Part shown: in pieces, positions 828-31,935 of the stretch
How the letters are laid out: every line of letters starts with the position of its first letter
Numbering within the stretch: the stretch's first letter is position 1
Virus record (IMG/VR): IMGVR_UViG_3300048797_000052
Location: 1 to 35,761 of that record
Length of the DNA stretch: 35,761 nucleotides
DNA from: a virus
Direction: 5' to 3' (one strand)
Notes under the pieces: model-generated
Seen by the model: only the letters and a program-made list of their open reading frames with translations
Database searches by the model: none
Told to the model about the DNA's origin: nothing
Position numbers and translations under genes: made by a program

Positions 828-1433
828 CTAGACCGCCTCGATCTGGTCCTCGGTGAATTCAACGGGGACCATGCGCTTGAACAAATCGACTAGGACACTG
901 AGTCGGCCCCTCGAGTCAAGTCGCTCGATCGTGCCGTTGAACGATGCGAACGGTCCATCAGACACTCGCACCATCTGGCCAAGCGCGTAAAGCCGCTTGC
1001 GCCGGCTGGGTGCCGTCGAGCCGATTTCCGCGATGATGCGAATATCGGAAATCAGTTTTGGCGAGAGGCGCGCGGTCCAATTGCCGAACCGCAAAAACCC
1101 ATCGACGCCGTCGACGTCGAGCAGCCCGCCGAGTTTGCACTGGAAATCGGGAATGAAGATAAGTCCCGGAAATAAAGGCAAAGTCACGTCGCGGAGATGC
1201 TCGCTGGAATAGCCCATGCGTCGGCGCGTGACACATTGCGATCGCACGATCGTCGGTAAATAGGCGCTGATGTTGCGCCGGCGAAATGTCCGCATTACCT
1301 TGCTCTCGCGATTGGTATGAAGCTGCAGCACGAACCAGCGCTTGGGGATCGGTACCTCGAGCGGGCCGAGCAGCGCGAGATCAAACGGATCGACGTAATC
1401 GCCGATTTTTAAAAGCGCGCGATCGACCATCAT
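828..1433 (-). CDS. NusG-like transcription (anti)termination protein
   Basis: About 201 residues with the two-domain layout of NusG/RfaH. The NGN part begins at about residue 32 with RWFVLQLHTNRESKVMRTF, followed by the usual 'LFPGLIF' core strand. The C-terminal KOW part reads GQMVRVSDGPFASFNGTIERL and ends in a hydrophobic strand. Such proteins bind the RNA polymerase clamp helices and change pausing and termination. Codons TTG-ATG-ATG precede the body; I take the ATG at 1433, which overlaps the stop of the replication gene. It is the last gene before the terminator at 697-724, so a role in reading through that site is a reasonable inference. Confidence 0.85.
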   Translation of the reverse strand: MMVDRALLKIGDYVDPFDLALLGPLEVPIPKRWFVLQLHTNRESKVMRTFRRRNISAYLPTIVRSQCVTRRRMGYSSEHLRDVTLPLFPGLIFIPDFQCKLGGLLDVDGVDGFLRFGNWTARLSPKLISDIRIIAEIGSTAPSRRKRLYALGQMVRVSDGPFASFNGTIERLDSRGRLSVLVDLFKRMVPVEFTEDQIEAV

Positions 1434-2689
1434 CAAGCAACCTCGCTGTTATCGATCGGCCATGTGCCATCGCGATGCGGCGGCCACGGTGCCGGCGCGC
1501 GCAAAATCTTCGCCGACTTTCGCAATCTGAAATCAGCATGCATCGCCGGCAGCGCATGCACAGCCGGATCGAACGGCTCGAGCCAGATCCGCTCGGGCTG
1601 GATCTCGCCGCCGAGCCATGCCTGCAGCCGATCGCGCCACGCGGCGAATTGCGGCGTGCCGAGATCGAACCGATGCCAGCTTTCGGGATCGGCGCTTGCG
1701 AATTCAGCGAGCGCGGCCAGGTCTGCCGGAACGGCGACGTTGCGCCATAGCCCGTGGCCATGCTCGGGATCCTCGATCAGCCGCGGCTCGCCGCGATCGG
1801 CCATGCGCATCGCGATCGCCAGCGCGTCGATCTCGCGCCCGGCGATCCAGACCCGTGACGGGGCGCCGGGCTCGACCAGCCTGGCATTCGGGAATTCGTC
1901 AAAGCCGCGGCTGCGGATCCAGAGATGAAAATTCGGCACCCTGGTGCGGCCGAGTTTTGTTTGCAGGCTTGCGAACAGCGGAACCGCTGCCCTGCAGAGC
2001 AGCTGCTTTTCTGCCGATAGCTGCCGGAACTCGGCGAGCGCCAGATCGCGGCGCATCACCTCATGGCCGGGCCAGCCATGCCAGGCCGGGGCAAAATGTT
2101 CCGGCTCACTTTCCAAAACCTGATCCTGATCACTCTCGCCCCCGGAGGGGGTCTTAGGGGGAGATTCAGGTTCAGGTTCAGAGATTAGCCCCCCCACGCA
2201 GTTGGGGGGCTGGCGGAGGGCTAAAGGAGGGCTAACATTATAACATATCGGATCGGCCCCATTATTTAGCCCCCCACCGGGTGGAGGGCTAACCGGCTCG
2301 ACATTGTCGGGCGAATCCCCATCATTTTGAGGCTCGGAAAGGTCGATTTCGGCCTCGATGATCAGCACGATATCGTCGCTGGTGCGCTTGCCCCGACCGT
2401 CGCCGTTGCGACGGCCATATTCGTCGAGCCATTGCGGCCGCCGCGCGATCGCGCCGATTCCCTCGAGCCAGGCGAGCCGGCTGCGGACCGTGTTGAGCGC
2501 GAGCTCGCAATCCTCGGCGAGCGCGGTGGCGCTGACCCAGCAGATCCCATCGCCGTTGACGTACTGGCTCAGCATACAGAGCACCAGCTTGGCGTGCGGA
2601 TTGTTGAGCCGCAGGTTGCGCGCCCAGGAATGCGCTTCGTCGGCGGCGATGCGTCGGGCACGCCGCTTTGCGTGGTCGTTTACGGACAT
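1433..2689 (-). CDS. Phage replication protein with N-terminal helix-turn-helix (O-like)
   Basis: 418 residues. Residues about 25-110 form a winged-helix domain of the phage replication-initiator type (HAKLVLCMLSQYVNGDG, then WVSATALAEDCELALNTVR). A Pro/Gly/Glu-rich, probably disordered linker of about 90 residues follows, then an alpha-rich C-terminal half with many Trp. A DNA-binding domain joined to a partner-binding domain by a linker, with iteron-like repeats inside the linker DNA, parallels lambda O. The family is inferred from the HTH and the context; I do not recognise the C-terminal domain. A GA-rich stretch lies before the start. Confidence 0.65.
   Translation of the reverse strand: MSVNDHAKRRARRIAADEAHSWARNLRLNNPHAKLVLCMLSQYVNGDGICWVSATALAEDCELALNTVRSRLAWLEGIGAIARRPQWLDEYGRRNGDGRGKRTSDDIVLIIEAEIDLSEPQNDGDSPDNVEPVSPPPGGGLNNGADPICYNVSPPLALRQPPNCVGGLISEPEPESPPKTPSGGESDQDQVLESEPEHFAPAWHGWPGHEVMRRDLALAEFRQLSAEKQLLCRAAVPLFASLQTKLGRTRVPNFHLWIRSRGFDEFPNARLVEPGAPSRVWIAGREIDALAIAMRMADRGEPRLIEDPEHGHGLWRNVAVPADLAALAEFASADPESWHRFDLGTPQFAAWRDRLQAWLGGEIQPERIWLEPFDPAVHALPAMHADFRLRKSAKILRAPAPWPPHRDGTWPIDNSEVA
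2165..2292. repeat. Iteron-like repeat cluster, candidate replication origin
   Basis: Inside the replication gene are six copies of a GGAGGGCTAA-type element in both orientations. Forward copies are at 2215-2224, 2226-2235 and 2283-2292, with a weaker one at 2204-2211. Inverted TTAGCCCCCC(A)C copies are at 2185-2197 and 2266-2277. The last pair forms a 12-base dyad with one mismatch and a 5-base centre. An AT-rich stretch (CATTATAACATAT, 2236-2248) lies in the middle. A TTCAGG triplet repeat at 2165-2181 flanks the cluster. Iterons plus an AT-rich segment within the initiator gene is the lambda origin arrangement. Confidence 0.6.
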
Positions 2690-7375: not shown

Positions 7376-7644
7376 GCTGCGGCCCTTGCCAGTTGCGGCG
7401 CCGATAAAATTGCGGTGATAAGATTCCAGCCCGTCGCACTGGAGCGAAAGAACGAGCTGCGCGTCGAACCCTCATCGGGCACGCAGCGATGCCAGATCTC
7501 GACCAGGCCGCGCCGCCACAATGGTTGCATCGCCTCGCGCTGATCGCGCGTCAGCGTGACGTGGCCGCCATTGCCGCAGCAGATCGCGAGGTGCTTTAAC
7601 GTCGCGATCTGCCGGTTTGAGAGACGCTCGCCCTTCAAAGACAT
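7372..7644 (-). CDS. Hypothetical winged-helix-like protein, 90 aa
   Basis: Starts MSLKGERLSNRQIATLKHLA. The order helix (LSNRQIATLKHLAICCG), strand, helix (TRDQREAMQPLWRRGLVEIW), then a hydrophobic tail, resembles a compact winged helix in which 'LWRRGLVEIW' is the usual 'L..kGLve' wing. Proteins of this build occur in phage early operons. Identity uncertain. The start overlaps the 3' end of the Gly-repeat gene by ten bases, and the stop overlaps the GapR-like start by ATGA. The longer frame to 7725 would run through the repeat gene. Confidence 0.65.
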   Translation of the reverse strand: MSLKGERLSNRQIATLKHLAICCGNGGHVTLTRDQREAMQPLWRRGLVEIWHRCVPDEGSTRSSFFRSSATGWNLITAILSAPQLARAAA

Positions 7645-8321
7645 TCTCCGATGACTTCGCGTTTCAGGGCTGCGACCTTGTCGCCATCGGTTTGCGTCTC
7701 GCCGATCAGCGCGACCAGCCACCATCGATCGCCCTTCCAGTTCGGCGGAACGAAGGTCCCGTGCAGGCCGCGCGCGGTGCAGACTTTGAGTGGCCCCTTG
7801 ATTTCCTCGACGGTGCCGGCGGCAACGGGAGTATTGTTTCCGCCGTTGCAGGCCTTGCCGTTTTTGTCCGATCGCCAGAATGCGATCGTGGCTCCCGCTT
7901 CCTGCAGATCAGCAAGCCGCCGCTGCTGCGGCCGTGGCATCTTCCTTGCAAAATTCGGGATCGTGGCGAGCCAATACTCTTTCGAGCCGTAGCCGTAGCC
8001 GTAGCCGTAGCCGTAGCCGTAGCCGTAGCCGGAGCCGTAGCCGTAGCCGTAGCCGTAGCCGTAGCCGTAGCCGTCGCCGGAGCCGGAGCCGTAGCCGGAG
8101 CCGGAGCCGTCGCCGGAGCCGTAGCCGTAGCCGTCGCCGTAGCCGTAGCCGTAGCCGTAGCCGTCGCCGTAGCCGTCGCCGGAGCCGTAGCCGTCGCCGG
8201 AGCCGTCGCCGTAGCCGTAGCCGTAGCCGGAGCCGTCGCCGGAGCCGTAGCCGGAGCCGGAGCCGTTTAAAAATGTGTCCGGGACTTCGCCCCGGACGAG
8301 TCTCGCTTCGCTTATTTCCAT
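7635..8321 (-). CDS. Gly-Tyr/Ser/Asp repeat protein with conserved C-terminal domain
   Basis: 228 residues in three parts. A short head reads MEISEARLVRGEVPDTFLNG. Residues about 20-113 are then an unbroken run of about 47 Gly-X dipeptides in which X is only Tyr, Ser or Asp. A globular tail of about 115 residues follows (KEYWLATIPNFARKMPRPQQ; KVCTARGLHGTFVPPNWKGD; RWWLVALIGETQ; DKVAALKREVIGE). The tail resembles small phage domains seen in rhizobial prophages, whose function I do not know. The repeat is expected to be disordered and tyrosine-rich, like condensate-forming or adhesive sequences. The ATG at 8321 overlaps the upstream stop; an in-frame ATG also exists at 8336. Confidence 0.75.
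   Translation of the reverse strand: MEISEARLVRGEVPDTFLNGSGSGYGSGDGSGYGYGYGDGSGDGYGSGDGYGDGYGYGYGYGDGYGYGSGDGSGSGYGSGSGDGYGYGYGYGYGYGSGYGYGYGYGYGYGYGSKEYWLATIPNFARKMPRPQQRRLADLQEAGATIAFWRSDKNGKACNGGNNTPVAAGTVEEIKGPLKVCTARGLHGTFVPPNWKGDRWWLVALIGETQTDGDKVAALKREVIGECL
7983..8264 (-). repeat. Hexanucleotide tandem repeat, about 47 units
   Basis: 282 bases of GGC followed by TAC, TCC or GAC, on the coding strand. Every unit is six bases, so gain or loss of units keeps the frame, and each variant is one base away from TAC. Gly is always GGC. Codon use this uniform points to recent expansion by slippage or unequal crossover. The DNA also opens long low-complexity frames on the plus strand (Ser-Arg and Ala-Val repeats), which are artefacts. 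Confidence 0.95.
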
Positions 8322-8614
8322 GGCGCGGCTTCCCATGCCGTCACAGATGCATCAGTGCATTCAGCAACCGAGGTGATATCGCGCAGCTCAATGTCTGCCG
8401 CCGGCCCGACGCGCGCGCCTTTCACCGGGCCCATATTGGCAAGCCCCATGAAGCCCCTGTTGTCAGTCGGCCAATAGATGCAATTGCGCGCGGCCCGCAG
8501 CTTGATCGTCACGCCATCGGTTTCGAGCGCATAGCCGAAAAACACGCCGCGATGCGACGTGGTGACGAGCACGGCGCGCTCGGCGTTCTTGCCCCGGTTT
8601 GGATGGTTGATCAT
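8312..8614 (-). CDS. Hypothetical phage protein, DUF6948-like
   Basis: 100 residues starting MINHPNRGKNAERAVLVTTS. The pattern VLVTTSHRGVFFGYALETDG, then LRAARNCIYWPTDNRG, then FMGLANMGPVKGARVGPAA and a final ...W, matches small beta-rich phage proteins that I connect loosely with DUF6948. The family call is tentative. No catalytic residues are evident. It ends inside the first codons of the Gly-repeat gene, and 44 bases separate its start from the gene upstream. Probably a small structural or regulatory early protein. Confidence 0.65.
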   Translation of the reverse strand: MINHPNRGKNAERAVLVTTSHRGVFFGYALETDGVTIKLRAARNCIYWPTDNRGFMGLANMGPVKGARVGPAADIELRDITSVAECTDASVTAWEAAPWK

Positions 8615-17177: not shown

Positions 17178-17285
17178 GGTAAAATCTCCGGTTGATTCAA
17201 CGATAGCGCGAGACCGCCAGGACTTTGCTGCCGCCGGTTGCGGTGGTATAGGTCAGCCCGAGACCATTCGAGGGAGCAATGCCCG

Positions 17286-18659
17286 ATGACCTACGCGAGC
17301 TATACCCGAGCCACGTCCGAATGGATTGCCCCGACTGTATTAGGTATTTCGGGCATTCTCTCGCTTAATCCGTATCTGTTTTGGTACACGGCGGACCATT
17401 TGATTGTCGCCGGTATTGCAACGGCGTGCTCGGGTGCGTTTCTGTTAGCGACGGGCCGGAGCGTGTTTCCGAAGCGCGCCGAACTCATCGGCGTTGCCGT
17501 CCTTACAATCTTTGTCGTCTATATCACCGCTCTGCCCAAAATTGGCGGCGGCCATGTCAAATGGGTTTTTGTACTGCCGACGCTTTGGACGCTGGCTATC
17601 ATGCCGTTCGACATGCGGATGAGAACCCTGCGCGTGTTCGCAGCACTGTTTGCGATCAGCGTTATTCCATCGGTATTGCTTTCGCTCTATCTAATCTCCG
17701 GCGCACCGATCACGCTCGGCACGATGCCGCTAGCCAATATCGAAATGGCGATGGGAGGGCAGAACCGATACTTCTTGCTTCCCTGCGCCCTTCTGCTGGA
17801 AGGCAACCAAATCGTCTTGCCGTGGGGCGGCGTCCTTTCTCGGATCTGTGGAATTTATGAGGACGCGGGCACGGTCGGGACTGTTGGGGGGCTGCTGCTG
17901 GCGGCCTTCCGATTTAACCTTCGAGATTGGCGGGCTGCGATTTTTTACTGTGCTGGCCTGCTTTCCTTCTCGCTTGCGTTCGTGGTCATAGCCGTGATCG
18001 GCTTCGTTGCCATGACAGTAATAACCAAGCGCGCGCGCCCCATAATAGCTGCGATCCCTGTTCTTTTTGTGGGCGCTCTCGCGCTTGGTTTTGTCAATGT
18101 TGCCGCACCTGTCGGCACCAAAACCAATGTTAGCGTTGAAACGAACTCTCAGCCGCCGCAAGCCATGGTTGCGCAGGGTTTCAATCTCCGCACGCCAGGG
18201 TGGAATAGCCGATTCAACCCCTCAATGCTGATGCTAATCGATGAGTACAAGGCCAGCGGCGTGAGCGTCTGGCTATTCGGTTTGGCCAGCGATGCCAGCG
18301 TGGTGAAGGGCAGCGTCTCATCAGCGTGGAGCCGCATCTACACCGACTACGGCCTCATAGGACTTTTCTTGCTCGGAGCGGGGCTCGGACTGACCGGGCT
18401 TGGTGCCCTGCAAAGTACGCGATATTCGTTGCCCGCTGGGCTCTTCCTGCTGCTGTTCTGCCTCAGCATTTATCAGCGGCCGGCCGTGTGGATGCCTTAT
18501 GCACTGTTGCTATTGTTCTGCGGCTCATTACTGCGGACCAAAACAATTCACCATGAAGCCAACTCCGGGATCAGTGAATGCCCCCGTGCTGGTTGCCCTG
18601 AATATAATGTTGAACGTAACGCCCGAGACCGAATTAGCCGTCGCGATAAGGCCCACTGA
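17286..18659 (+). CDS. O-antigen polymerase/ligase-like membrane protein (lysogenic conversion candidate)
   Basis: 457 residues from MTYASYTRATSEWIAPTVLG, preceded by GAGGGAG; the open frame continues upstream to 17238. Ten or more hydrophobic segments are visible, with a periplasmic loop of about 70 residues (VAAPVGTKTNVSVETNSQPP, then NLRTPGWNSRFNPSMLM) before the last helices. SAWSRIYTDYGLIGLFLLGA is the late 'YGliGl' motif of Wzy/WaaL-type proteins. Such phage genes alter O-antigen linkage and exclude other phages. It stands alone on the plus strand between tail and lysis genes, as morons do. Its last 44 codons overlap the fibre gene, so the C-terminus may be cut short or extended. Confidence 0.75.
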   Translation: MTYASYTRATSEWIAPTVLGISGILSLNPYLFWYTADHLIVAGIATACSGAFLLATGRSVFPKRAELIGVAVLTIFVVYITALPKIGGGHVKWVFVLPTLWTLAIMPFDMRMRTLRVFAALFAISVIPSVLLSLYLISGAPITLGTMPLANIEMAMGGQNRYFLLPCALLLEGNQIVLPWGGVLSRICGIYEDAGTVGTVGGLLLAAFRFNLRDWRAAIFYCAGLLSFSLAFVVIAVIGFVAMTVITKRARPIIAAIPVLFVGALALGFVNVAAPVGTKTNVSVETNSQPPQAMVAQGFNLRTPGWNSRFNPSMLMLIDEYKASGVSVWLFGLASDASVVKGSVSSAWSRIYTDYGLIGLFLLGAGLGLTGLGALQSTRYSLPAGLFLLLFCLSIYQRPAVWMPYALLLLFCGSLLRTKTIHHEANSGISECPRAGCPEYNVERNARDRISRRDKAH

Positions 18660-24359: not shown

Positions 24360-24715
24360 GGCATCACCATCAGTGCCAGCGAAAGCTGGTAATTATTGGC
24401 GCCCTGCGGCGAATAGGCCGGCGGGGACGCCTTGGTGAATTTCACCAGTAGGGTCGCGCCTGAGATCGGATCCGGAAAGGTGAACGGCAGCGCGCCGTTC
24501 AAGATCGTGGTGTAGAAAAACGTCTCGAATGTCGCGATCTGGGTATCGGTCAGGATCATCACACCCGACAGCGGGCGCATCACGGCCGTGGTGCGCCGGC
24601 GCGTGGTCGACGGCCCGGTGTCGGGCTGGTATTCGACCAGCGCGTCGCCGACGCCCTTGCTGGCACCCGACAGCAGCAGCGCCTGCGGCAGCGTTCCCGG
24701 CCATGCGGACGCCAT
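24356..24715 (-). CDS. Minor tail protein (M-like/distal tail)
   Basis: 119 residues starting MASAWPGTLPQALLLSGASK. It is beta-rich: VEYQPDTGPSTTRRRTTAVM, TDTQIATFETFFYTTILNGA and LPFTFPDPISGATLLVKFTK. The phrase 'rRrTta....lsg...lt..q...f..Ff...l..G..pF.f.dP' is typical of phage minor tail proteins between the tape measure and the L-like protein, and is shared with distal tail proteins. The ATG overlaps the tape-measure stop (TGATG). Confidence 0.8.
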   Translation of the reverse strand: MASAWPGTLPQALLLSGASKGVGDALVEYQPDTGPSTTRRRTTAVMRPLSGVMILTDTQIATFETFFYTTILNGALPFTFPDPISGATLLVKFTKASPPAYSPQGANNYQLSLALMVMP

Positions 24716-26829
24716 CAGCGGCTCGCCAGGCGTTGCCGCGACCCGAGCTGGTCGGTCAGCACGCGATTAAGCGGTGCGCCTGGCGTTGCAGCGCTCTTGG
24801 CCGTGATCTGCGCGATCGCGACCTCGATGTCGATGCCGCCATTGGCATTTTGTTTTTGCGTGGTGCCGCCGCCGCCACCTGGCGTCTCGATCAGGTTGAC
24901 CGTGATATGCGGCAGCGATCCGCCGCCGCCCGAGGAGACGCCGAGATTGCCGTCGGCGCCGCGACGCAGCGGCACGATCGCCTCGGGGCCGGCCTCGCCC
25001 ATCCGGGCCATCGGCACAACCTGCTCGCGGTCGATGACTCCACCACGCGCGAACGGGACGACATTGCCGCCGTCGAAAATATTGCCGTGCGCGCTGAACA
25101 CGCCTGGTCCGGCCGGGCTGCCGAGCGTGATCTGGCCCTGGGCGCCGCCCAGGCTGCCGAGGCCAAGCCCGCCGGCTGCGGTCTGCAGCGCCTGCATCAA
25201 GGGCGTGACGATCGCGATCTTGATGATCATCTGCTCGATCGCTTTCACCACGGCCATCCCCATATCGGAAAAACCCTGGCCGACGCTCTTAGTGTGGGAC
25301 GCGATGTCGGTCAGCCCCGTCACCAATTCATTCTCGATCGCCGACGAGAGCGTGCGCGCGGCCGTGTTGAAACGCATCTGCGCCGCCTCGGCCGAATTCA
25401 GCGCCGTGGTGACGTTGGGATAAATGTCTTTCAGCTTGCTCGCGATCGCGACATCTTCCTGCGACAGGAACGCGGTTCTTGCATTGAAATTGTTTTCGTT
25501 GGCGATCTTAACTCGCGCCAGGTTGTCGGCGACGGCGGCCGCCTCGAGCTTGAGGCTCGCGAACGCTGCGGCCTGGGCTGCGGTTTCCTTGCCTCCATTG
25601 GCCTGCACTGCTGCGGTCTCGGCCGCGATGGCGCGAAATTTTGCCAATGCAGCGGCGCCCTCGCCGACCGCAAGCGTGTCGGCCGTTTGCGTTTCGATGT
25701 GTTTCCGTAGCGTGTTGATGGCGCGATCGACGGCGTCATTGGCATCGCCGCCGGTCGGCGGCAGCACCGTGCCAGAGCCGCCGGTGATCGGGATTCTGAC
25801 CAGCTCCTGCTTTTGCTTGATCAGGGCCTGGACCTTGGTGATTGCCGAATCGACGGTTGCGAGATCCGCCGCATCGAGCCCGAGTGCGCCGGCCTTGTTT
25901 TCCAGCTTGAACCTCTGGAAATCCGACATCTCGGCATTCACGCTAGACAATTGATCGCGATAGGCTTGCAGGCCGGCGAGATCCTTTTGCAGATCGCCCG
26001 AGGATTGCTGGTCGACTGGCGTCAGAGAGCGCGAGAAAAACGAGCCGAGCGAGCCGGCTTTGTCGAGCAGACCGGTCGCAATATTGGCGAGCTGCACCAG
26101 CATCGGCAGGATCGAGCCCAGCGAGGCCTTGAATTGCATATCCCAGGCCGCGACCGCGGTATGCCACTCCCGATCGAAATCTTTCGCTTTCTGGATCACG
26201 CCGTCATCGATAACGGCGCCGAGGCTGATCGCGGCCTGCTTTTGCCGCCCGAATTCATCCGAGCTCTCGCGCAGCAGCGGGATCCAGTCCTTTGAAACGC
26301 CGACGATGCCCGCGATCGCCCGCTGCACCGCCGGCGTCGAGTTTTGCATCAGCCCCATGATGTCGACCAGCGCCATGCCGGCGGTCTTGATCTCGCCGTT
26401 GGTCTGCTTGATCGAGATCCCATTGGCCTCGAACAGCTTGCCGAAATCGGTGACGCCGCGGCTGGCCGCGGTCAGATCGGTGCCGATCTTGTCGAGCCCG
26501 GAAATGAAATCCTTTTCGGTCAAGCCTGCGGCGCGCGCCGCGAACAGCGTCGCCTGGAAATCGCGCGTCGACATGCCGGCATTAGTCGCATTCTCGGCGA
26601 CGTCGACCAGTTGCTTGTTGGTGGTGCCGACATAGTCGACAAAGGCGCGCAGGCCGGCGATCGCCGCGATGGTGGCGACGCCGACGCCGGCGACCGCCAG
26701 CGTCATGCCGGCGACCGAGCTGGTGCCGCGCTGGGCCGCTTGCTCGGCGCCGTCCATGGCGCGCGAGAAATCAGCAGCGCCCGAGGTGTTGCTGTCGATG
26801 ACGAGCTCTGTAGTAACGACTTGGCCCAT
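24715..26829 (-). CDS. Tail tape measure protein
   Basis: 704 residues. It opens with VVTTELVIDSNTSGAADFSR AM, the common start of this family, followed by hydrophobic helices (AVAGVGVATIAAIAGLRAFV), long helical middle parts and the diagnostic end FARGGVIDREQVVPMARMGE, then AGPEAIVPLRRGADG. Its length sets tail length; at about 0.15 nm per residue this predicts a tail near 105 nm, shorter than lambda. It begins one base after the T-frame stop, so translation is probably coupled to the G/GT genes. Confidence 0.93.
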   Translation of the reverse strand: MGQVVTTELVIDSNTSGAADFSRAMDGAEQAAQRGTSSVAGMTLAVAGVGVATIAAIAGLRAFVDYVGTTNKQLVDVAENATNAGMSTRDFQATLFAARAAGLTEKDFISGLDKIGTDLTAASRGVTDFGKLFEANGISIKQTNGEIKTAGMALVDIMGLMQNSTPAVQRAIAGIVGVSKDWIPLLRESSDEFGRQKQAAISLGAVIDDGVIQKAKDFDREWHTAVAAWDMQFKASLGSILPMLVQLANIATGLLDKAGSLGSFFSRSLTPVDQQSSGDLQKDLAGLQAYRDQLSSVNAEMSDFQRFKLENKAGALGLDAADLATVDSAITKVQALIKQKQELVRIPITGGSGTVLPPTGGDANDAVDRAINTLRKHIETQTADTLAVGEGAAALAKFRAIAAETAAVQANGGKETAAQAAAFASLKLEAAAVADNLARVKIANENNFNARTAFLSQEDVAIASKLKDIYPNVTTALNSAEAAQMRFNTAARTLSSAIENELVTGLTDIASHTKSVGQGFSDMGMAVVKAIEQMIIKIAIVTPLMQALQTAAGGLGLGSLGGAQGQITLGSPAGPGVFSAHGNIFDGGNVVPFARGGVIDREQVVPMARMGEAGPEAIVPLRRGADGNLGVSSGGGGSLPHITVNLIETPGGGGGTTQKQNANGGIDIEVAIAQITAKSAATPGAPLNRVLTDQLGSRQRLASR

Positions 26830-26831
26830 GA

Positions 26832-27643
26832 CTATTCGGTTTCGAGTTGCGATTTTGTATGGTCGGAGAGATATAGATCGTCGAGATCCTCGAGGACCCC
26901 GATTTCCCAGGGATCGAGCCGGATGCGGGCCTGGCGCAGGAATGCGTCGATGTCAGGCCATTCGATCGGCGACGAACCGAAGCCGTTGCCGCCCTTGCGC
27001 CGGCGCAACCGATGGTAGATGCGCCAGAGATAATCCAGCGCGATCGGCAGCGGCGGGCAGGATAGCTCGGCCTGGTATTCGGCGAGCGCTTTCGGGTTAA
27101 GGGCGCGCGCGACGAGGCCCTCGAGCAATTCGCGGTAGGGGGCGCCATCTGCGAGCGAATTAAGTTGGAACGTCTTTTCAGCGAATGCCCTCAGATCTGC
27201 TCTGAGGGCGGCATAAAAGCCCGCTCACCTGTAAAGTAATCGGTGATCTGCACAAAAAAGCTTCCGAGATCGGGACGCACGAACAGATCGACCGCGGCAT
27301 CGAGCGAGAATGCGATCGGATCCGGCGACACAAACTTAAAGGTTGGATTTGGCGACCAGCCGACGATACGGCGGCAAAGCGTGGTGACGTTTTTGCGCCG
27401 CCGATCGTCGACAGTTTCCTGGCCGCCCTTCCATTTTCGGCCGTTGACCTGGGCGAGCTCTATCGCCCTTTCCTTTTCGAGATTTTCGCGGCTCATATCG
27501 CTAACAACCGCGAGCGTTTGCGGGTGCGACGGCCCTGCGAGCTCGATCACCCAGCCGGTCGGGATAGAGGTGCCCGGCTTCAGGATGGCGAGCTTGAACG
27601 AGGCCTGCGGCGCGAGATCCGATAGATCGAGAGTGTCTGACAT
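26832..27643 (-). CDS. Tail assembly chaperone GT-like, predicted -1 frameshift product
   Basis: If ribosomes slip -1 at 27215-27221, the first 143 residues of G are joined to 127 residues in the -1 frame, about 270 in total. The T part reads ALRADLRAFAEKTFQLNSLA, then DGAPYRELLEGLV, ALDYLWRIYHRLRRRKGGNG FG, PIEWPDIDAFLRQARIRLDP and WEIGVLEDLDDLYLSD, which is typical for phage tail-chaperone T domains. The T frame has no good start codon of its own; a TTG at 27128 would leave out conserved residues. Frames: G stop at 27191-27193, T stop at 26832-26834. Its product should be made at a low ratio to G. Confidence 0.85.
27187..27221 (-). promoter_or_regulatory. Programmed -1 ribosomal frameshift signal (slippery site plus hairpin)
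   Basis: Read on the minus strand, GGCTTTT (27215-27221) is read as G-GCT-TTT in the G frame. A five-base spacer follows, then a perfect 9-base stem (arms 27201-27209 and 27187-27195) with a 5-base loop. The A-site TTT re-pairs fully after a -1 slip, while the P-site GCT re-pairs only in part (GGC). The -1 frame is open from just before this site to the T stop. Slippery run, spacer and stem are in the classical arrangement of lambda G-T. Confidence 0.85.
27191..27643 (-). CDS. Tail assembly chaperone G-like
   Basis: 150 residues starting MSDTLDLSDLAPQASFKLAI, with a GGAG site. The body (TSIPTGWVIELAGPSHPQTL, ENLEKERAIELAQVNGRKWK, RRKNVTTLCRRIVGWSPNPT) and the last piece DLGSFFVQITDYFTGERAF match phage tail assembly chaperones, which coat the tape measure and recruit tube subunits. 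It stops inside a hairpin that forms the frameshift signal described in the next entries. It sits between the tail tube and tape-measure genes as expected. Confidence 0.85.
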   Translation of the reverse strand: MSDTLDLSDLAPQASFKLAILKPGTSIPTGWVIELAGPSHPQTLAVVSDMSRENLEKERAIELAQVNGRKWKGGQETVDDRRRKNVTTLCRRIVGWSPNPTFKFVSPDPIAFSLDAAVDLFVRPDLGSFFVQITDYFTGERAFMPPSEQI

Positions 27644-27685: not shown

Positions 27686-28909
27686 TTAGGGAGCCGTGGT
27701 CTGGAATTTGAGCATCGTATTATCTCCGGTCGCCGAGGTGTCGACGCCGACCAGGCCGGCCGGGATCGCAATCGACTGGGTGCGGCCGCCGCCCTGCTTT
27801 GACAGCGCTGACGGATCGGTCGATCCCAGGGTGAAATTCGGCACCGTGATCGCGATGAAATCCTTTGGCTCGGTCATGTTGTCGACTGCCAGGAGATTCA
27901 ACGAATATTGCGTCTCGGCGATGAAATCCGAGAAAACCGCAAGATCCTTGCGCAGCATGGTCAGATTCATCGAGACCAAAAGCGGCCCTGTGAAAACATC
28001 GGCGCCGAATTTCTGCGCGCCGGATCCAAACACGGGCGGCGAGCCCGGCTGAATGTCGAGGTTGATGTCGAGCGCCGACAGCGCCACCTGGTCAACGCCG
28101 TTGAGGCGGATGGTGGCGTCGACTACTGACATCGGCACGTCCGTGGTCGCGACCGGCGCGGTGAACATCGGCGAGGAGCCGGTCGCCAGCGCTGCGACCT
28201 GGCCGATGCCGACGCCCGAGGGCGCCGCCATCACCAGGCCGTTATTCGCCATTGAGAATTTCAGGCCGCCCCAGACGAAATCCTGCACCGTGGTCGACTG
28301 ATCGATGTCGCCCTCGTATTCCTCGAGCGTGTAATAGGGCTTTACCAGCACGGCCGGATTGATCAGCCGCTTGCCCGAGCGCGTGATGGTGCAGCTGGTG
28401 TCGGCGACCGCATCGACCACCAGCGTTTCCGCGACCGTGATGGTGGTCGCCGACAGCCCGGTGATGCGCAGGTTTTTGGCGTTGTTGGCGACGTCGGTCA
28501 GACCGGCGCAGCGGATCACGTCACCGACCCGGAAACCCATGGTGATCGGATTGCCCGAGGTCAGTATGATGGTGTTGGCACCAGTGGTCAGCGAGGTGAA
28601 ATCGGTCTGCGATTTCGTCAGCGCCGCCGAGTCCCAGGTCGAGCGCATCAGCGCCTCAATGATCCCGTCATGCGAGCCCAGCGACAGCTCGGCGTTATAG
28701 GCGGCCGTGATCGCTTGCGTGCCGTGGCGTCCGCGCGTCGACATGCCGTCATTGCGCACCTCGGCCGAGGCGATCGCGGCTTTCGCCAGCTTGATGCCGT
28801 TGCCGCCGGAAAGCCGCAGCACGCTGGCGGCGGAGCCAGACGCCGGCGAGCCAAGGGCGGTCTGCTTTTTATAGGAGCAAAGAATATTAGAGTTTGTCTG
28901 GAAAACCAT
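27686..28909 (-). CDS. Major tail tube protein
   Basis: 407 residues from the ATG at 28909, where GGAG is well placed; an in-frame GTG three codons earlier is possible. The start, MVFQTNSNILCSYKKQTALG SP, then VRNDGMSTRGRHGTQAITAA YNAEL, is a common tail-tube opening. The rest alternates beta strands with Ala/Thr/Gly-rich turns and ends in 'GVDTSATGDNTMLKF'. Tube subunits stack as hexamers around the tape measure. The gene lies between the tail terminator and the chaperones, the standard position. Longer than lambda V, it may carry an Ig-like C-terminal domain. Confidence 0.85.
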   Translation of the reverse strand: MVFQTNSNILCSYKKQTALGSPASGSAASVLRLSGGNGIKLAKAAIASAEVRNDGMSTRGRHGTQAITAAYNAELSLGSHDGIIEALMRSTWDSAALTKSQTDFTSLTTGANTIILTSGNPITMGFRVGDVIRCAGLTDVANNAKNLRITGLSATTITVAETLVVDAVADTSCTITRSGKRLINPAVLVKPYYTLEEYEGDIDQSTTVQDFVWGGLKFSMANNGLVMAAPSGVGIGQVAALATGSSPMFTAPVATTDVPMSVVDATIRLNGVDQVALSALDINLDIQPGSPPVFGSGAQKFGADVFTGPLLVSMNLTMLRKDLAVFSDFIAETQYSLNLLAVDNMTEPKDFIAITVPNFTLGSTDPSALSKQGGGRTQSIAIPAGLVGVDTSATGDNTMLKFQTTAP

Positions 28910-28942
28910 GACGGTCACTCCGCGAGTTGAGAGCTGGGGATT

Positions 28943-30819: not shown

Positions 30820-31935
30820 TTATGCTCCCGGCGTCACGGTCCTGGCGCCGGCCTTCGGCGTCACCAGGCGAACCTCGCTTGCAACCGTCACCAGTCGCGG
30901 CGACAGCACGAAAGCCGACGGGTCCAGAATTTTAGGATGCAGATTGACAGCTACAATCGGCGCCGGCAGCGGCGGAATCCAGGCGAACTGCACTGCATAG
31001 GGAAGCTTGGCGCCGCCGGCGAACGACGGATTGGTGGCAAGCGGTCCGGACGGCGTAAACTTTGGCCCGACGATTGGCGAGGACTGACTAGGCAACCATG
31101 CCAGCTGCACCTCGAGCGGCACGCGCGAGCCCACCAGCGGCGGCGCTTGTGACGTCGAGGCCTGCGGCAGCAGTTTTGCAGCGACGATCGGCGGCTGCGG
31201 TAGTGGCAGCCAGGCGAGCTGCACCTCGAGCGGGATCCGCGCGCCGCCCATGAACGGCGGATTTTGCGGCGCCGAGATCGGCAGCCCGTTGATGGCAACA
31301 ATCGGCGCCGGCGAAGCCGGCAGCCAAGAGACCTGCACCTCGACCGGAACGCGGGTGCCGGCAAATGGCGGGTTGGTCGCCGCCGAAATGCCAAGCGTAA
31401 ACTTCGGCCCGACGATCGGCGCGGGCGGCAGTGGCAGCCAGGCGAGCTGCACCTCGAGCAACACCCGCGCGCCGCCATTGAACGGCGGATTCGATGCAAC
31501 GGCAATCCCGAGCGTAAACTTCGGCCCGACGATCGGCATCGGCGCCGGCGGCAGCCAGCTGATCAGAATTTCGCCGCAGACGCGGGCGCCGCCCATGAAT
31601 GGCGGATTCGAAATAACCGGGCCGTTGATCGGCGGATCGAGATTGATCGCAACGATCGGCGCCAGGACTGGCGCATCCCAGGCGCGATAGATTTCGTAAT
31701 CGATGTTCTTGAACGGGAACGGCGCTGCAGGTGCGCTCTGTGGCACCATCAGCGTCGGCAGCACGATGGCGACAGCGGCAACCGACCAGCACGATAGGAT
31801 CGCCTGGCCGATGCGTGAGCCCGTGAACGGCGGATTTTGCGGCGTCGGCCCGCTTTGCGGAGGGGTTAATTTCCTCTGCTCGAGCGGCTGCTGATTGCCG
31901 ACATGGGGCGGATTCGGGTTGTAGTACAGGCCCAT
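30820..31935 (-). CDS. Virion-region repeat protein, about eight 38-aa Pro-rich repeats
   Basis: 371 residues. Six clear and two weaker copies of a repeat with consensus NPPFxGGARVPLEVQLAWLP, then a short spacer and APIVGPKFT. The best copies are at about residues 115-345. Pro, hydrophobics and few charges suggest a beta-solenoid or stalk. The start is GLYYNPNPPHVGNQQPLEQR. No family recognised. It lies in a block of structural genes between adaptor and stopper, so a head fibre or decoration is likely. The DNA repeats are diverged, so this is old duplication. Confidence 0.7.
   Translation of the reverse strand: MGLYYNPNPPHVGNQQPLEQRKLTPPQSGPTPQNPPFTGSRIGQAILSCWSVAAVAIVLPTLMVPQSAPAAPFPFKNIDYEIYRAWDAPVLAPIVAINLDPPINGPVISNPPFMGGARVCGEILISWLPPAPMPIVGPKFTLGIAVASNPPFNGGARVLLEVQLAWLPLPPAPIVGPKFTLGISAATNPPFAGTRVPVEVQVSWLPASPAPIVAINGLPISAPQNPPFMGGARIPLEVQLAWLPLPQPPIVAAKLLPQASTSQAPPLVGSRVPLEVQLAWLPSQSSPIVGPKFTPSGPLATNPSFAGGAKLPYAVQFAWIPPLPAPIVAVNLHPKILDPSAFVLSPRLVTVASEVRLVTPKAGARTVTPGA

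Follow-up and report, generated by a model that had tools for sequence, protein, structure and literature searches.

Putative −1 frameshifting at a minimal U_UUU site, and a hairpin of two forms, in the tail chaperone cassette of a phage group

In phages such as lambda, the tail assembly chaperones G and GT are made from one start by a ribosomal frameshift, and the founding survey of frameshifts in tail genes is reportedly that of Xu et al. in 2004. The virus record IMGVR_UViG_3300048797_000052 of IMG/VR raises the question of whether such a shift operates there and on which bases of the message. The window, which is the whole stretch of DNA analysed (35,761 nucleotides), carries on its minus strand a tail terminator-like gene (29392-28943), a tail tube gene (28918-27686; PF18906, E 7e-17), the frame G, the frame T, a tape-measure gene (26829-24715; PHROG tape-measure families, best E 2e-13) and minor tail proteins, in that order. 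The G/GT cassette (26832..27643) is flanked by the tube (27686-28918) and the tape measure (24715-26829), and a location between these two genes is a criterion by which G/GT tail assembly chaperones are recognised. G (27191..27643) is an open frame for a putative short tail assembly chaperone of 150 amino acids, ending at the TGA at 27193-27191. T (26832..27224) is the predicted C-terminal part of GT and is limited by a TGA upstream (27227-27225) and a TAG at its end (26834-26832). The overlap expected of such genes, with T in a shifted frame over G and no start of its own, is found here as well. It spans 34 nt (27224-27191), and the frames stand in the −1 relation that the preliminary description of this DNA had proposed. 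Given the bounds of the T frame and the stop of G, a −1 shift is confined to these 34 nt. The predicted GT protein would have 270 amino acids, 143 from G and 127 from the T frame.

The family of T agrees with this reading of the locus. T belongs to the Pfam family PF23812, Phage_TAC_18 (38.4 bits, E 1.3e-9; curated cut-off 27), and so do all 29 aligned T relatives, which bears out the T-domain identity previously suggested from recognisable residues. This family covers the T domain alone and includes neither the G part nor the shift. For G, the family phrog_313, 'Tail assembly chaperone', was matched by 22 of 29 aligned relatives (best E 3e-9), the window's own G falling below the threshold (E 0.04). 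The Pfam search of G returned no family, the NCBIfam search no match, and fold searches of the PDB with both G and T nothing similar. The structure of T was predicted with a pLDDT of 90.5, and its first helix (residues 2-21) begins at the shift codon (residue 2). The fold resembles part of the fused tape-measure chaperones of other phages, with a match in Escherichia phage Seurat (E 8e-5, TM 0.76 on the query).

Relatives were sought in viral contigs, in contigs of GTDB and in phage records, which gave 135 loci in which T could be anchored; the GTDB contigs, scanned with a single protein, contributed four. Compared over the 110 nt that surround the site, seventy-five of the loci, the window included, are distinct; they are mutually related, and counts at the site are not independent. 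Since the named sources are Bradyrhizobium, Rhizobium, Jiella, Henriciella and Rhizobiales, the hosts of the group are probably Alphaproteobacteria, an assignment that follows the relatives and not the window's own source. In every one of the 75 sequences, G reads into the site without a stop, and T lies in the −1 frame. A profile of G found the upstream gene in 73 of them at E < 1e-5, and in one more at 1e-4.

Within the G/T overlap of the window, the sole Z_ZZN motif is T_TTT (U_UUU in the message, 27215..27218). It is present in 72 of the 75 distinct sequences, with T_TTC in two and G_TTT (within GGGGTTT) in one, while elsewhere in these genes TTT makes up 21% of phenylalanine codons and T is the last base of 12% of all codons. 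The site belongs to the tetramer class U_UUY, with T_TTT at 27218-27215 and a hairpin 5 nt downstream, both conserved. In Escherichia coli, U_UU.U is a weak motif that shifts only when a strong stimulator is given, and U_UU.[U,C] is also employed by IS elements (PMC4066793; Sharma et al., 2014). The preliminary description had placed the slip on the heptamer GGCTTTT. This heptamer does occupy 27215..27221 and is, as was said, outside the textbook X_XXZ_ZZN class, but it does not appear to be what is conserved. Its first three bases vary among relatives and change 42 times on the tree; 18 different heptamers occur, of which GGCTTTT and GTCTTTT are the commonest (18 sequences each), and only four sequences have a textbook heptamer. 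Because T_TTT or T_TTC is kept while the preceding codon varies, sequence comparison indicates that the operative unit is the one-tRNA tetramer U_UUU and not GGCTTTT. With conservation limited to the tetramer, the partial re-pairing of the P-site codon GCT is to be expected and is not puzzling. Nor does the term 'rare-looking' hold for the site, which is usual among these phages and whose pattern, going by its name, is known as 'twoonefour' in PRFect. An upstream Shine-Dalgarno-like stimulator of the dnaX or IS911 type is not enriched, matches of at least 4 nt being present in 22 of 75 sequences, equal to the 29% background.

Downstream of the tetramer, the spacer ATGCC (5 nt, 27210..27214) leads into a predicted stimulatory hairpin (27187..27209). 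Its arms, GCCCTCAGA (27209-27201) and TCTGAGGGC (27195-27187), form a perfect 9-bp stem with the loop GCAGA, and the stop codon of G lies inside the 3' arm; spacer, stem and stop are located exactly as first described. In the window, this stretch folds better than 200 of 200 dinucleotide shuffles (z −3.7), and a run of nine pairs at a spacer of 4-9 nt has P = 0.006 against base shuffles and 0.02 against synonymous recodings of T. For the window alone, the total fold energy at the site does not differ significantly from that of synonymous recodings (P = 0.145), and by itself its hairpin is only marginal against such recoding; the case therefore rests on the relatives. Across these, the mean fold energy z against synonymous recodings is −1.56 at the site, and a control region within T gives −0.28.

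The 75 sequences were searched for stems of at least 6 bp with a 5' arm beginning 4-9 nt past the site, and the counts were compared with the expectation from synonymous recoding of T. Two registers stand out, register 32 with 18 stems against 1.3 expected and register 45 with 49 against 11.2, and none of the others is clearly above expectation. They correspond to a short form of 9 bp with a 5-nt loop (17 of 75, including the window) and a long form of 9 bp with an 18-nt loop (48 of 75), which have a common 5' arm; no clear stem in either register was seen in the remaining ten. In the short set 97.4% of cells are paired, falling to at most 57% when the arms are slid, and one position appears as G-C, C-G and A-U; in the long set 87.7% are paired, and at most 51% when slid. 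The sets were sorted by their own stems, which inflates the values of 97.4% and 87.7% and leaves the register counts and the codon test described below unaffected. Swapping the registers, with the short structure placed on the long set and vice versa, failed in both directions.

Since the sets had been chosen by their stems, an unselected test of covariation was needed. In the 58 sequences outside the short set, base 1 of T codon 7 was compared with base 3 of codon 14, a conserved alanine codon that is mostly GCC or GCG, a synonymous choice. The two bases pair in 49 of 58 sequences, as G-C in 23 and C-G in another 23, whereas 5000 shuffles of the same pair averaged 27.5 and never exceeded 43. 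Judged on these sequences, the downstream stem is conserved at 4-9 nt with strong covariation and in two forms. On a quick tree built from G and T minus the hairpin region, the distribution of the short form requires two changes, of which the first concerns the group of 13 that contains the window and the second a set of four with a Bradyrhizobium phage among them; the tree is unrooted, which leaves the direction of change unsettled. It is likely that this group of apparent Alphaproteobacteria phages shifts on a bare U_UUU, the 5' arm of the hairpin and its spacing being kept while the 3' arm has been swapped between two sites 13 nt apart.

Other routes to the T product have to be weighed against a slip of one tRNA. 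Two tRNAs might slip in tandem on G_GCU_UUU, tRNA-Ala re-pairing in part on GGC. For this speaks that GGCTTTT is joint commonest among the heptamers and persists in 11 of the 13 members of the group to which the window belongs, that NCU precedes UUU in 54 of 75 sequences, whose C could re-pair with G34, and that PRFect includes a pattern of this type. The free first three bases and the scarcity of canonical heptamers argue otherwise, as does the mismatch at the middle position that a move from GCU to GGC would create, and tandem slippage is thus considered unlikely. T could also be made alone, with no fusion, by reinitiation or from an internal start. The record of Bradyrhizobium phage ppBdUSDA122-1 (OP596612.1 12838-21266) annotates T separately, with a start well downstream, and its G gene is annotated as 'branched-chain amino acid ABC transporter'; both entries look like misannotations. 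The shift site of this phage reads AAATTTT. The first 100 codons of the window's T frame contain no ATG or GTG and two candidate TTG codons, at 27128 and 27008, neither with a Shine-Dalgarno sequence. The comparison of related phages that had been recommended for this site likewise revealed no conserved start of T: in 63 of the 75 sequences, the open T frame is free of ATG, GTG and TTG within 45 nt of the site. Among relatives, the homology of T sets in at the shift codon, and the first helix would be lost from a protein started later. A separate T is therefore very improbable.

Two further explanations carry still less weight than independent translation of T. Slippage of the RNA polymerase on the T run would yield a mixed mRNA, and such events are known in bacteria on runs of A or T (PMC1088944). 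Here the run has just four T, T_TTC is tolerated and an RNA structure conserved at a fixed distance would be unnecessary, so that there is scarcely any likelihood of this origin. That a sequencing error or a decayed gene simulates the overlap is least credible of all, the identical arrangement being present in 75 of 75 distinct sequences.

The reading we prefer, with a probability of roughly 0.93, is a lambda-type G/GT cassette in which a −1 programmed frameshift by tRNA-Phe on the minimal U_UUU, stimulated by the hairpin, yields G of 150 and GT of 270 amino acids. This −1 shift, also the central claim of the preliminary description, is supported at the sequence level because T belongs to a known Pfam family, the gene order is that of tail chaperones, the −1 relation is found throughout, T has no conserved start and a covarying hairpin stands at a fixed spacing. 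The arrangement is real and the signal in all likelihood functional. Ribosomes translating G would decode the UUU at 27217-27215 while their leading edge hits the hairpin five bases on and pauses. In a minority of them, tRNA-Phe (anticodon GAA) would release and re-pair one base upstream, on the UUU that overlaps the first; these ribosomes would continue in the T frame (ERAF-YAALRADL) to make GT, while unslipped ribosomes would end at the TGA in the stem and release G. What the sequences show is the anatomy, the family of T, the conservation and the covariation; that the shift takes place, how often it does so, which tRNA slips and what G and GT bind is inferred. By analogy with lambda, where many G and few GT sit on the tape measure and T recruits tube subunits (PMC5009743), G may coat the tape-measure protein and T may bring in the tube subunits, with the shift rate setting the ratio. 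As a yardstick, two genes from an HK97-like tail-chaperone cluster shift at a measured 6-7% (PMC3711429).

The G/GT pair of phage lambda (PMC5009743) likewise lies between tube and tape measure and produces a shorter and a longer chaperone from the same start by a −1 shift near the end of G. The likeness is one of arrangement; a tetramer with a hairpin is found here and a heptamer in lambda. The lambda shift site is G_GGA_AAG. The U_UUY class of the IS3 family (PMC4066793) also has one tRNA moving from UUU or UUC to UUU and needs a strong downstream structure; those are transposase genes with a pseudoknot, measured in E. coli, whereas the present site lies in a structural operon of a phage and is followed by a plain hairpin predicted from sequence. 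PRFect 'twoonefour', used for actinophage tail chaperones (PMC10885494), would cover GGCTTTT if its name, XX-Y-ZZZZ, is taken at its word; it is defined by pattern in other phages, whereas the relatives examined here indicate that the first three bases are free. A conserved −1 site on a T run, GTTTTT, is likewise reported in a tail chaperone gene of Vandenendeviridae and Andersonviridae, which are other phage families with a longer run, and the available text on them describes no hairpin (PMC12846349).

Distant phages with the T domain (loci L136, L138, L139 and L140), inspected by eye, get to T by other means at a UUU. Pseudomonas phage ZQG1 has U_UUU_UUC and Caulobacter phage DMCA has U_UUU_UUG, both canonical −1 sites, and in Limnohabitans phage DC31 and Curvibacter phage P26059A an apparent +1 frame occurs at UUU_CGA.

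Outside the cassette, the window contains a phage-borne NusG-like protein (828-1436, minus strand; PF02357, E 1.9e-10, with a weak KOW), a possible antiterminator. A 6-base repeat occurs 47 times at 7985-8266, giving a tract rich in Gly-Tyr/Ser/Asp within the minus-strand frame 7635-8336. The minus-strand gene at 30820-31935, for which no Pfam family was found, encodes a protein of diverged repeats of about 38 amino acids (NPPF.G..RV..EVQ.AWLP..), from a tandem repeat of 114-117 bases. A plus-strand frame of 473 amino acids (17238-18659), very hydrophobic and without a Pfam match, runs opposite to the tail operon.

G/GT frameshifting itself is well known; of interest here are the minimal tetramer and the exchanged hairpin arms, rather than the heptamer. 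The findings extend G/GT frameshifting to a phage group in whose single close public phage record found it is unannotated, and gene callers miss the shift in such genomes, calling T late or as a separate gene. Apparently, going by the conserved sequences, a single-tRNA tetramer with a positioned hairpin is enough for a structural operon. The two forms of the hairpin provide a natural variant series for the effects of stem, loop and spacing on the shift rate. If the proposal is true, these phages represent a natural experiment, in which the stimulator would have to keep its position and strength, and not its loop or its sequence.
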